Source of the DNA: Candidatus Infernicultor aquiphilus
GTDB lineage: Bacteria > Atribacterota > Phoenicimicrobiia > Phoenicimicrobiales > Phoenicimicrobiaceae
Length of the DNA stretch: 63,381 nucleotides
Direction of reading: 5' to 3'
NCBI GenBank assembly: GCA_002782675.1
Contig: PFIP01000051.1
Coordinates: 1-63,381, forward strand
Below the pieces are notes generated by a model. It was not told the origin of the DNA, did not search any database, and saw only the letters and a list, made by a program, of their open reading frames with translations. This document shows positions 3,645-44,621 of the stretch, in pieces (position 1 is the stretch's first letter; each line of letters starts with the position of its first letter). Made by a program: the position numbers and the translations under genes.

Positions 3645-4703
3645 TCAGTTTGAATATTCTCTGGGGGAATCCGTAGTTGTAGAATTTGATGTTTGAGTCT
3701 CCTCCGGGGAAGATGAGGATGATTGGTTTTCGCTTTTAAAATCATATTTAATAATAATATTAGCATTAGCAGTTAAATTAGAAACTAAATTTTGGGTTGC
3801 TTCGATTTCTTTTTGATTCTTTAAAATATTATTTATATTCTCTTTTGCTTCCTCAAAAGTAGGATTGTGTGCTTCTTTTTTCTCTACTAATTTTATAATA
3901 TGATAACCAAATTCGGTCTTTACCACATTACTAATTTCACCTGGTTTTAAAGAAAAGGCAGCATCTTCAAATTCCTTGACCATCTGGCCTCTGGTAAAAA
4001 ATCCTAAATCTCCGCCATTTAGAGCAGAAGCATCTATCGATTTTTGCTTAGCTAATTCTGAAAAATCAATTATACCTTCTTTGAGTTTATTTAGAATATT
4101 ATTCGCTTCTTCTTCGGTGTTTACAATTATATGTAAAGCATGAACTTTTTCTGGTTCAAAAAAACTATCTTTATTTTTATTAAAATATTCTAATAATTCA
4201 TCATCTGTGATGGTTATTTTATTTTTAGCTTCACCTAAAACATAATTTATCATGAGCTGCTTTTTGATATCATCTTGAAGTTGATTAAGAGCAATGTTGT
4301 TTGCTTTTAAAGCATTATCAAACTCTTCAGGGGAAGAGAAGTTTTCTTTTATTTTGTCTATTTCTGAATCGATATCATTTTTAGAAATTTTAACTTTTTC
4401 TTTTTTAGCTTGTTGAAATAGCAGTTCTGAATTAATCATCTGTTGGAGAATATTATTTTTAAGGGAATTAATGGTGGATTGATCCATACTGGAAATAGTT
4501 TTATTATCATATCTTGATATGGTATTTTGAAAAGTAGCTTGCCATTGATTATAACTAATTCCTACTCCATTTATTTCTGCTATGTAGTATTTTGTTTTTT
4601 GAGAAGATCTATATTGTCCTAAGCCATAAAAAATAGATACTCCAAAGGCAGCAATTACTATAATTAATATAATTTTCATATATTTTCTTATTGTTCGCAT
4701 CAT
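3645..4703 (-). CDS. Membrane-anchored parvulin-type peptidyl-prolyl isomerase (SurA/PrsA-like)
   Basis: This 352-residue protein has an N-terminal membrane anchor (about residues 9-29), a SurA_N-like helical chaperone region (about 38-175) and one rotamase domain. The rotamase domain runs from HALHIIVNTEEEA through GGDLGFFTRGQM to FGYHIIKLVEKK (about 190-282). It should catalyse proline isomerisation and hold proteins emerging from the Sec machinery. The C-terminal 50 residues are a Ser/Thr/Gln-rich tail. That tail is cut short at a run of five G (plus-strand 3663-3667): a one-base change would continue it about 30 residues to a stop at 3557. AAAGGAG lies 14 bases before ATGATG, so start 4700 is equally possible. 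It is convergent with the M14-like gene. Confidence 0.85.
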   Translation of the reverse strand: MMRTIRKYMKIILIIVIAAFGVSIFYGLGQYRSSQKTKYYIAEINGVGISYNQWQATFQNTISRYDNKTISSMDQSTINSLKNNILQQMINSELLFQQAKKEKVKISKNDIDSEIDKIKENFSSPEEFDNALKANNIALNQLQDDIKKQLMINYVLGEAKNKITITDDELLEYFNKNKDSFFEPEKVHALHIIVNTEEEANNILNKLKEGIIDFSELAKQKSIDASALNGGDLGFFTRGQMVKEFEDAAFSLKPGEISNVVKTEFGYHIIKLVEKKEAHNPTFEEAKENINNILKNQKEIEATQNLVSNLTANANIIIKYDFKSENQSSSSSPEETQTSNSTTTDSPREYSN

Positions 4704-40937: not shown

Positions 40938-41930
40938 ATGTCATATATTAAAAAATATTTTTTAATTATTATAATTATAATTTTAATTCTAATTAATTTA
41001 ATTACAACTCCTTATTATCTTGTAGTTCCTGGACAGTGTGTCAATTTAAGTCAAAATATTACAGTAGAAAATGGTGAAAAAGATGCCAAAGGAAAATTTC
41101 TTCTTACTTCGACTACAATTATAAAAGCAAATTTATTGCTATATTTATATAATTTTTTTGATACTAATGTTGATTTGAAAAATTATAATAAAGAAAATTT
41201 GGTAAATTTAAATCAAAAAGAATATATAAATGTAATGGATAAATTGATGCAAGAGAGCCAAATGATTGCTAAAATTGTAGCTTTAAAGAAAGTAGGGTAT
41301 TTACCAGAAATTTCAGGGGAAGGAGTATTAGTTAATAAGATATTAGATCATAGTTCAGCAAAAGATAAATTATTACCAGGTGACGTAATTGTAAAGGTAA
41401 ACGATCAGCCTATTAATACTAGAGAAGAATTTTCAAAGATGGTTCAAAGTTATATTTCGACCCAAGTTATTAAGATTACCTTTTTAAGAAATAATCATAC
41501 TTATTCAGCGTTAATTCCTATTATTGAACTTCCTAATGCAGATAATAAAATAGAAAGTTTAGGTATTGGGATTTATGCTACTAATAAAGATATTGAATGT
41601 AAGTTCCCTTTAAAAATAGAAATCTTTTTAGATAAAATAAAGGGACCTTCTGCAGGGCTAATGATTGCTTTAGAAATATTAAATCAATTAACTGAAAATG
41701 ATTTAAGCCATGGTTTAATAATTGCTGGAACAGGTAATTTAGAAATCGATGGAAAAATATATGAAGTTGATGATATTAAACAAAAGATTATTTCTGCTAA
41801 AAAGCAAAAAGCTGATATATTTTTAGTGCCTCAAAATAATTACCAAGAAGCTCTTAAATTTAATCAAGATATAAAAATCATACCAGTTATAGATTTTGAT
41901 GATGCGATAATGAAATTAATAAAATTATAA
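40938..41930 (+). CDS. PDZ and Lon-type protease domain membrane protein (YlbL/SepM-like)
   Basis: The 330-residue protein has one N-terminal membrane helix (about residues 7-27) and a PDZ domain (about 115-205: [21 protein letters not shown]). A C-terminal Lon-like protease domain follows. The serine lies in [15 protein letters not shown] (about Ser237) and the lysine in [11 protein letters not shown] (about Lys281), forming the Ser-Lys dyad. YlbL/SepM proteins process small secreted peptides such as competence pheromones in streptococci; the substrate here is unknown. The position after coaD matches B. subtilis ylbL. Confidence 0.9.
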
Positions 41931-42080
41931 AAGTATAAAATTGCTAATAATTATAAAAAAAGAATCAATGCAAGCAAAATCATTAGCAACTTGATTAGTT
42001 GTTTCTCTTGCTTTCGAAAGATGATAAAGATGGCCACTATGGAAAGGATTGTATTCGGTGATAATATCTAATATTTTCAT
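41925..42080 (-). pseudogene. Truncated tmcAL (ylbM), tRNA(Met) cytidine acetate ligase remnant
   Basis: On the minus strand ATG 42080 opens a 51-codon frame starting [20 protein letters not shown] followed by [10 protein letters not shown]. This is the very characteristic N-terminus of YlbM/TmcAL, with the nucleotidyltransferase HxGH motif, an enzyme of about 400 residues that uses acetate and ATP to make N4-acetylcytidine in elongator tRNA-Met. Similarity fades after about 30 residues and the frame stops at 41925. The rest of the gene is absent. In Bacillus, ylbM lies on the opposite strand right after ylbL, exactly as here, so this is a syntenic relic. Confidence 0.8.
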
Positions 42081-42108
42081 AAAATTTCTCGATTTAAAAA
42101 ATATTTTA

Positions 42109-42117
42109 TGGTATAAT
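42109..42117 (+). promoter_or_regulatory. Putative extended -10 promoter of pta-ackA
   Basis: TGG followed directly by a perfect TATAAT (42112-42117) forms an extended -10. The -35 region (TCGATT at 42089) is poor, as allowed for this class. The pta start is 53 bases downstream. Confidence 0.4.
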
Positions 42118-42169
42118 TATACGAAATTTATAAAAAAAATGATAGTAAATTATTAAAGGGAGAATTAAA

Positions 42170-43180
42170 ATGAAAATATCTCAAATAATTCGAGAAAAAG
42201 CCAAAAAAAATCCTAAGAATATCGTTCTTCCGGAAGGAGAAGAACCGCGAATGATTAAAGCAGCAGAAATAATTACTAAAGAGGGATTTGCAGATTTAAT
42301 ATTATTAGGGAAAAAAGAGAATATTAAATTCAAAGCGCAGGAGTTAGGAATTGAATTTCCAAACAAAATAAAAATTATAAATCCTAAAGAGTCCGACAAA
42401 TTAAAAAAATATGCGGAATCTTATTACCAACTTCGTAAAAATAAAGGATTGAGTTTGGATGAGGCTTATCAATTACTAGAAGACCCTCTTTATTTTGGTG
42501 CATTAATGGTTTATCATAATGATGCAGATGGTTTGGTTGCCGGTTCAATTAATGCTACGGGAGATGTTTTTAGACCTGCTTTGCAGACCATTAAGACTGC
42601 CCCTAATATAAATATTGTTTCAAGTTCTTTTATAATGGTTATACCTGATTGTCCCTATGGAGAAAATGGAGTTGTTGTATTTGCAGATTGTGCTATAAAT
42701 CCGGAACCTAATGCTGAACAGCTTGCTGATATTGCTATCGCCAGTGCTGAAACTGCAAAGGTTTTAGTGGGTATTGAACCAAGAGTGGCTATGTTGTCGT
42801 TTTCCACCAAAGGTAGTGCCAAACATTCTATGGTTGACAAAGTAGTGGAAGCTACAAAAATTGCTCAAAAAAAGAGGCCAAATTTGCTTATTGATGGAGA
42901 ATTACAAGCTGATGCAGCATTAATTCCCTCGATTGGGGAACGAAAGGCTCCAAATAGTAAAATTGCGGGAAAAGCTAATGTTTTAATATTCCCTGATCTA
43001 CAATCTGGGAATATTGCTTATAAGTTAGTAGAAAGATTAGCTAAGGCTGAGGCTATAGGTCCAATTTCTCAGGGGATGAGAAAACCAGTCAATGATCTTT
43101 CTCGAGGTTGTAGCGCAGAAGATATTGTTAATGTAGTAGCTATTACTGTATTGCAAGCAGGTCAAGCAGGTAAGATATAA
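42170..43180 (+). CDS. pta: Phosphate acetyltransferase
   Basis: This 336-residue single-domain Pta converts acetyl-CoA and phosphate into acetyl-phosphate and CoA. The family pattern includes IVLPEGEEPRMIKAAEI near the start, DGLVAGSINATGDVFRPALQ and the late GKANVLIFPDLQSGNIAYKL. It lacks the N-terminal DRTGG regulatory domain of enteric Pta, as in Clostridia. GGGAG precedes ATG 42170. With ackA it forms the acetate branch that yields ATP from acetyl-CoA. Confidence 0.95.
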   Translation: MKISQIIREKAKKNPKNIVLPEGEEPRMIKAAEIITKEGFADLILLGKKENIKFKAQELGIEFPNKIKIINPKESDKLKKYAESYYQLRKNKGLSLDEAYQLLEDPLYFGALMVYHNDADGLVAGSINATGDVFRPALQTIKTAPNINIVSSSFIMVIPDCPYGENGVVVFADCAINPEPNAEQLADIAIASAETAKVLVGIEPRVAMLSFSTKGSAKHSMVDKVVEATKIAQKKRPNLLIDGELQADAALIPSIGERKAPNSKIAGKANVLIFPDLQSGNIAYKLVERLAKAEAIGPISQGMRKPVNDLSRGCSAEDIVNVVAITVLQAGQAGKI

Positions 43181-43271
43181 AGATACAAATTATATTATAG
43201 ACTTATAATACTTTAAAAAATAATGAGTAAGCATGGATAGAATAAAAAACAAAAGAGGAAGGAAAGATTTT

Positions 43272-44621
43272 ATGATTATATTATCTTTTAATTGTGGTAG
43301 TTCTTCAGTAAAATATCAACTTTATAATTGGTCTAAAAAAGAAATAATTGCCAAGGGTATAGTAGAAAGAGTTACTATCGGAAATTCTTTTTGTGTTCAT
43401 GAAGTTAACCATAAAGAAAAAGTTACTATAAAACATGATTGTATTACTCATAAAGAAGCTATAAAATTAATAATTGATAGTCTCATTCACCCTGAGTATG
43501 GAGCTATCAAAGATTTATCTGATATTACGGCTGTAGGTCATAGAGTGGTCCATGGTGGTGAAAAATTTTCTAAATCAGTAATTATAAACCAAGAAGTCAT
43601 CAAAACTTTTAAAGAACTTGCTGGATTAGCACCTTTACATAACCCACCTAATATCATGGGTATTGAAGCAGCTATGGAGCTTTTACCCCATATTCCTCAT
43701 ATGGCTATTATGGATACTGCCTGGCATCAGACTATGCCTGATTATGTCTATACCTATGCTGTACCTTACCAATGGTATGAAAAATATGGCATAAGAAGAT
43801 ATGGTTTTCACGGTACTTCATTACTATATGTAGCCAAAAGAGCAGCTGTTCTCTTAGGGAAAGATCCTTTTACCTGTAATTTAATAAGTTGTCATATTGG
43901 GAATGGGGTAAGTATCAATGCAGTAAAGAACGGTCTTTCTTATGATACCAGTATGGGATTTACACCCTTAGAAGGAGCCATTATGGGTACCAGAGCGGGA
44001 GATCATGATGCTGCTTTAGATTTATATTTAATGCAGAAAGAAGGTTTTTCCCCTGAAGAAATGGATACATTTTTGAACAAGAAAAGTGGAATATTAGGTA
44101 TAACCGAAAAATATGTGGATAGAAGAGATGTAGTAAAAGCAGCAACTGAAGGGGATAAAAGAGCCAAATTGGCGATTGAAATGGAAGCCTACAGACTGAA
44201 GAAATATATTGGTGCTTATACCGCTGTCTTAGGAAGATTAGATGCTTTAATCTTTACTGCTGGAGTAGGGGAAATGAGCAGTGTTATAAGAGCTAAGGTA
44301 TTAGAAGGATTGGATATATTGGGGATTAAATATGATCCAGAAAAGAATAGATTAGCTAAAACCAGAAATGTAGAATCTGATATTTCTGCCCTTGACTCCA
44401 GGGTAAAAATATTTATTATTCCTACTGATGAAGAATTAGTCTTTGTGGAAGATGTAATCGCTCTATTGGAAGGTACTTATGACTTACACACTAATTTTAA
44501 ATATACTTTTCAAGATCCAAATTATAAAAATTTAATGAGAGAGAAAGCTTTTGAAAAAGAATGTAAAAAAAATCCAGAATTATCTAGAATTAAGCATATT
44601 AGGACTAATATAATAAATTAA
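43272..44621 (+). CDS. ackA: Acetate kinase (with C-terminal extension)
   Basis: This 449-residue ASKHA-fold kinase makes ATP and acetate from acetyl-phosphate and ADP. Catalytic elements are present: NCGSSSVKYQL, HRVVHGGEKF, APLHNPPN, MDTAWHQTMP (the aspartate), RRYGFHGTS, CHIGNG, GTRAGD (the arginine) and TAGVGE (the glutamate). About 45 residues follow the normal end of the family. The loop after GTR reads AGDHDAALD instead of the usual SGDIDPAI. ATG 43272 behind AGAGGAAGG is preferred to the ATG 39 bases upstream. The gene is followed by a 129-base gap where DUF177 is normally found. Confidence 0.92.
   Translation: MIILSFNCGSSSVKYQLYNWSKKEIIAKGIVERVTIGNSFCVHEVNHKEKVTIKHDCITHKEAIKLIIDSLIHPEYGAIKDLSDITAVGHRVVHGGEKFSKSVIINQEVIKTFKELAGLAPLHNPPNIMGIEAAMELLPHIPHMAIMDTAWHQTMPDYVYTYAVPYQWYEKYGIRRYGFHGTSLLYVAKRAAVLLGKDPFTCNLISCHIGNGVSINAVKNGLSYDTSMGFTPLEGAIMGTRAGDHDAALDLYLMQKEGFSPEEMDTFLNKKSGILGITEKYVDRRDVVKAATEGDKRAKLAIEMEAYRLKKYIGAYTAVLGRLDALIFTAGVGEMSSVIRAKVLEGLDILGIKYDPEKNRLAKTRNVESDISALDSRVKIFIIPTDEELVFVEDVIALLEGTYDLHTNFKYTFQDPNYKNLMREKAFEKECKKNPELSRIKHIRTNIIN

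Follow-up and report, generated by a model that had tools for sequence, protein, structure and literature searches.

A 5′ remnant of tmcAL next to pta and the probable loss of its enzyme in Candidatus Infernicultor aquiphilus

In the genome of Candidatus Infernicultor aquiphilus, a short minus-strand remnant of tmcAL (ylbM) lies between a PDZ/Lon-type protease gene and pta, at the place where relatives carry the intact gene, and neither a second copy nor a gene for TmcA is found in the assembly. We consider it very likely that this feature is a pseudogene, i.e., the 5′ end of tmcAL that remained after about 1.2 kb had been deleted, and that the enzyme is gone with no TmcA to replace it. The remnant shows that the absence of TmcAL here is a loss and not an ancestral lack, and it suggests that this loss was fairly recent.

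The listing of open reading frames (ORFs) for the window, i.e., the whole 63,381-nt stretch of DNA analyzed, confirmed a 51-aa minus-strand ORF at 41925–42080. Residues 1–30 of this ORF matched positions 1–30 of the 402 positions of PF05636 (HIGH_NTase1) with 47.2 bits (E 2.6e-12), above the curated gathering cut-off of 27 for this family, and the codons for these first 30 TmcAL-family positions occupy 41991–42080 on the minus strand. The same residues matched positions 1–30 of NCBIfam PRK13670 (43.3 bits, E 2.8e-11), far under a curated cut-off of 360 that is set for the whole protein. A full-length TmcAL would cover about 390–400 profile positions, and the ORF covers only the first 30. At the nucleotide level, tmcAL sequences of 10 family relatives were used to build a DNA profile, which matched exactly nt 1–84 of the gene (nhmmer, 57.1 bits, E 5.9e-18), and past nt 84 of the remnant this profile had no match at all. 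Since both the PF05636 and the DNA-profile matches are confined to the 5′ end, the similarity ends at codon 28–30, as the preliminary description had stated when it reported a loss of similarity after about 30 residues. Judged from the sequence, the remnant proper would thus extend over 41991/41997–42080, the remaining 60–66 nt before the ylbL stop codon not being demonstrably tmcAL; we delimit it at 41997–42080 (minus strand), comprising the start codon and codons 1–28 with the HxGH motif (here HSGH). The remnant therefore shares with TmcAL (YlbM; PF05636, COG1323; tRNA(Met) cytidine acetate ligase) the first 28–30 residues, including both the HxGH motif and the EYNPFH signature, as well as the locus of the intact gene in relatives, but it lacks about 410 of 440 residues and cannot be a functional member of the family.

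To place the remnant in its phylogenetic context, we used a comparison set of 41 genomes, made up of the genome studied here and 40 related genomes, none of them a second representative of the genus. Profile search identified (near) full-length tmcAL in 16 of the 40 related genomes, 15 of which matched from profile position 1 or 2 to 392–395, the last one (G021) matching positions 1–357. These genes were found in 10 of 13 genomes of the same family and 6 of 10 of the sister family, with no TmcAL match in the 17 genomes from other families of the phylum or in sister-family genomes G019, G020, G022, and G023. The three same-family genomes without TmcAL (G002, G011, and G013) do not contradict a conserved place for the gene, because full-length pta is missing from their assemblies as well (in G013, pta is present only as a C-terminal fragment at the end of a contig). 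Across the 16 loci, pta adjoins tmcAL in 15, and in the sixteenth (L006) the contig stops at this point. Toward the other side, ylbL was found in 8 of the 10 same-family loci; the contig of L009 is cut before it, and no ylbL was found between coaD and tmcAL in L011 (G001) or in any of the six sister-family loci (L012–L017). In these same seven loci, coaD lies near the 3′ end of tmcAL. In relatives, tmcAL and pta are transcribed divergently, and tmcAL is oriented toward ylbL in the loci that have this gene; the remnant sits in the same place with an identical orientation. A comparable gene order presumably exists in Bacillus, with ylbM on the opposite strand directly after ylbL.

The genes flanking the remnant were readily annotated. 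The convergent neighbor (40938–41930, plus strand) encodes a PDZ/Lon-type membrane protease similar to YlbL/SepM (SepM_fam_S16, PF13180, PF05362), with an E-value of 1.5e-45 to SepM_fam_S16 that is yet under the cut-off of this model. On the other side are pta, encoding phosphate acetyltransferase (42170–43180, plus strand; TIGR00651, 403.7 bits), and the acetate kinase gene ackA (43272–44621 as scanned, plus strand, the longest ORF starting at 43233; TIGR00016, 489.4 bits). The remnant and pta share a divergent intergenic region (42081–42169) which includes the palindrome TATAATTATA and a TCGAG motif directly before the remnant start codon, and which is nearly identical in family relatives, although the spacer to pta is 89 nt here vs 98 to 424 nt in relatives. 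Four relatives with short 3′ gaps have 1351, 1355, 1363, and 1365 nt between the start codon and the ylbL stop codon, and the other four relatives measured have 1480–1897 nt, compared to 150 nt here. With a span of 150 nt instead of about 1,350 nt and the promoter region kept, we conclude that about 1.2 kb was deleted.

The remnant match does include the HxGH motif, and the generic cytidylyltransferase model TIGR00125 was weakly matched (19.3 bits, under its cut-off of 27.7), as would be expected if the ORF merely resembled a nucleotidyltransferase HIGH motif by chance. Nevertheless, PF05636 was matched above its curated cut-off over 30 residues, conservation extends to the upstream DNA, and both place and orientation are those of the gene in relatives; chance resemblance, to which we attribute a negligible probability, is already refuted by synteny combined with conservation at the DNA level. 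Taken together, the PF05636 match and the synteny with relatives bear out the original proposal of a tmcAL fossil between the protease gene and pta, and the comparison of the region across relatives that had been suggested alongside it yielded a full tmcAL at the same place with only the 5′ end in the genome studied here.

The enzyme could in principle be encoded elsewhere. The remnant was the sole PF05636 match in the assembly (1,671,248 bases in 173 contigs, 92.2% complete), and TmcA, searched through its GNAT acetyltransferase domain (PF13718), was detected in none of the 41 genomes, the one studied here included, with positive controls in E. coli and two archaea. TmcA, the acetyl-CoA-dependent enzyme (COG1444), is responsible for the identical ac4C34 modification in E. 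coli, and TmcAL takes its place in B. subtilis (PMC7408541). Its absence from this genome and 40 relatives thus leaves no replacement here, and both exceptions raised in the preliminary description, i.e., another copy or TmcA, came back negative in this assembly.

The case is drawn from one metagenome assembly that lacks about 8% of the genome and has one demonstrated gap. This leaves some room for an artefact of assembly or strain, whereby tmcAL would be intact in the population but bridged over by the assembler, or a minor deletion variant would have been assembled instead, a reading in keeping with a metagenome-like assembly of 173 contigs and a comparison set without a genome from the same genus. 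We regard this as improbable, given that the site sits within a 63-kb contig, that the 66-nt tail of the locus is not a plain piece of the relatives’ tmcAL, and that the remnant itself is altered at two residues showing little or no variation among 15 relatives. Specifically, D5 and S15 of the remnant were seen in none of the 15 tmcAL loci compared (out of 16, L014 falling outside the count as it was not picked up by the motif): position 5 is G in all 15, and position 15 is N in 14 and Q in one. T27 is likewise found in none of the 15, at a position that is variable. Over the 28 codons, the remnant differs from L005 by 8 silent and 5 replacement changes, compared to 6 and 3 between L003 and L005, and no clear relaxation of constraint is visible in these counts from a very short stretch. 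The latter, along with the retention of a promoter region, a start codon, and a 51-codon open frame, would also fit a functional small protein or leader peptide derived from the old 5′ end. Such a product is nonetheless very unlikely, as residues 31–51 match no family, a nucleotidyltransferase fold would be impossible from 28 residues, and a form as short as this 51-aa ORF is absent from all 16 relatives with a match.

The remnant is separated from the ylbL stop by a 66-nt tail (41931–41996, minus strand) which was not matched by the tmcAL DNA profile (nhmmer) and for which a 15-bp AT-rich hairpin is predicted on the minus strand (−12.5 kcal/mol; 6 of 200 shuffles were as good), while for the plus strand the corresponding figure is 96 of 200. 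For comparison, the convergent intergenic gap is 30–34 nt in four relatives, and a strong 12-bp hairpin lies between the convergent stops in G003 (L002; 0 of 200 shuffles as good). Additional tmcAL pieces were considered as the origin of the tail, with 21–23 nt aligning locally to codons 76–83 in 3 of 15 relatives (L002, L003, and L013). For the 10 family relatives, the best score was matched by 29 of 1000 dinucleotide shuffles and the summed score reached by 57 of 1000, and 70 of 1296 unrelated 66-mers from the window attained the best score; we thus treat this origin as unproven. A mobile repeat was also rejected: the best match off the locus in the same genome was a gapped 74% stretch on contig C135 (E 4e-4), apparently within the coding sequence of another gene as read from its flanks, with no repeat family. 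Most simply, the tail would be the former intergenic region between the convergent genes, the rest having been lost in one deletion, although it may correspond to this region or its terminator, or to scrambled tmcAL, and two or more steps may also have been involved.

Under the pseudogene reading, the ancestor would have had a functional tmcAL that faced ylbL and was transcribed away from pta, and some 1.2 kb, between approximately codon 29 and the approximate position of the stop codon, would then have been deleted, most simply in a single event. The survivors would be the divergent promoter region, which pta would still need, the ribosome-binding region, and 28 codons, the 5′ end having perhaps been kept since it adjoins the pta promoter. 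A break within tmcAL was also observed in G021 (L017, about 2589–2789), where the gene stops at codon 362 and the last 36 or so residues lie about 90 nt further on in another frame (tblastn with four relatives), which could be the same loss at an earlier stage, or else a sequencing error.

The lost enzyme would have used acetate and ATP to acetylate C34 of elongator tRNA-Met. According to PMC12514573, TmcAL uses these two substrates on this base, recognizes tRNA bases 32 and 38, and works together with TilS in the faithful decoding of AUA, keeping methionine out of AUA codons. With TmcAL lost and no TmcA, this lineage therefore probably has no ac4C34 on its elongator tRNA-Met, and one of the marks separating AUA from AUG has probably been lost in this bacterium. 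The preliminary description had held that the loss would remove this mark unless another copy or TmcA exists: neither was found in the assembly, and the absence of the mark itself stands as a probable consequence. Discrimination between AUA and AUG would then be left to TilS/lysidine and the ribosome. Across the 49 window ORFs that have 150 codons or more, AUA represents 907 of 18,132 codons (50 per 1000), more than AUG (371).

Among 37 tRNA matches in the assembly studied here (G000), one has a CAT anticodon, and its acceptor and loop are of the class taken for tRNA-Ile2; elongator tRNA-Met was assigned by the acceptor ggcggtg and C38, which we take as class markers after B. subtilis sequences. 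No TilS was found over the cut-off in this assembly either, its block falling in a contig gap. A joint loss of TmcAL, elongator tRNA-Met, and TilS was considered and rejected. In G003 (L166, 1709–8444), the block reads eno, tRNA-Leu(UAA), two tRNA-Met, tilS, hpt, and ftsH, where tilS was identified by search and eno, hpt, and ftsH were named by inspection of the sequence, and in G007 initiator and elongator tRNA-Met are likewise grouped with tRNA-Leu(UAA). The eno contig of G000 (3,482 nt) ends 124 nt past the match, at the near edge of the tRNA/tilS block, and initiator tRNA-Met and tRNA-Leu(UAA) are missing too, so that the missing block reflects a gap and is uninformative on the biology. 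Two further features of the G003 block were recorded: one tRNA-Met gene lies immediately before tilS, and a dispersed repeat of about 60–120 nt, with >30 matches in G000, is located between hpt and ftsH (about 3786–3910).

We also compared base 32 in 32 elongator tRNA-Met genes (among loci L134–L202), out of 71 CAT tRNAs obtained by pattern match from 38 of the 41 genomes. U32 was found in 16 of 18 genes from the two TmcAL-bearing families (the exceptions, G014 and G022, have C32), and C32 in 13 of 14 genes from families without a TmcAL match (the exception, G028, has U32). That G014 combines TmcAL with C32 speaks against a strict base-32 rule, and we consider this pattern as a lead, since it largely corresponds to one split of the tree and is not evidence of repeated co-evolution. 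Whether Atribacterota lost the wobble acetylation of elongator tRNA-Met several times despite AUA being common, with base 32 following the enzyme across families, is a tentative and rather doubtful proposition.

Searches of the literature on the distribution of TmcAL, ac4C, and TmcA retrieved no account of tmcAL loss in Atribacterota, and those on Atribacter and tRNA modification retrieved nothing. The remnant itself represents ordinary gene decay and is of mild interest because AUA is common here. If the repeated losses across the phylum were real, AUA/AUG discrimination would depend solely on lysidine and on the tRNA or ribosome, where its importance should be greatest. An AUA-rich lineage dropping TmcAL without TmcA would constitute a natural test of what the acetyl mark is worth.
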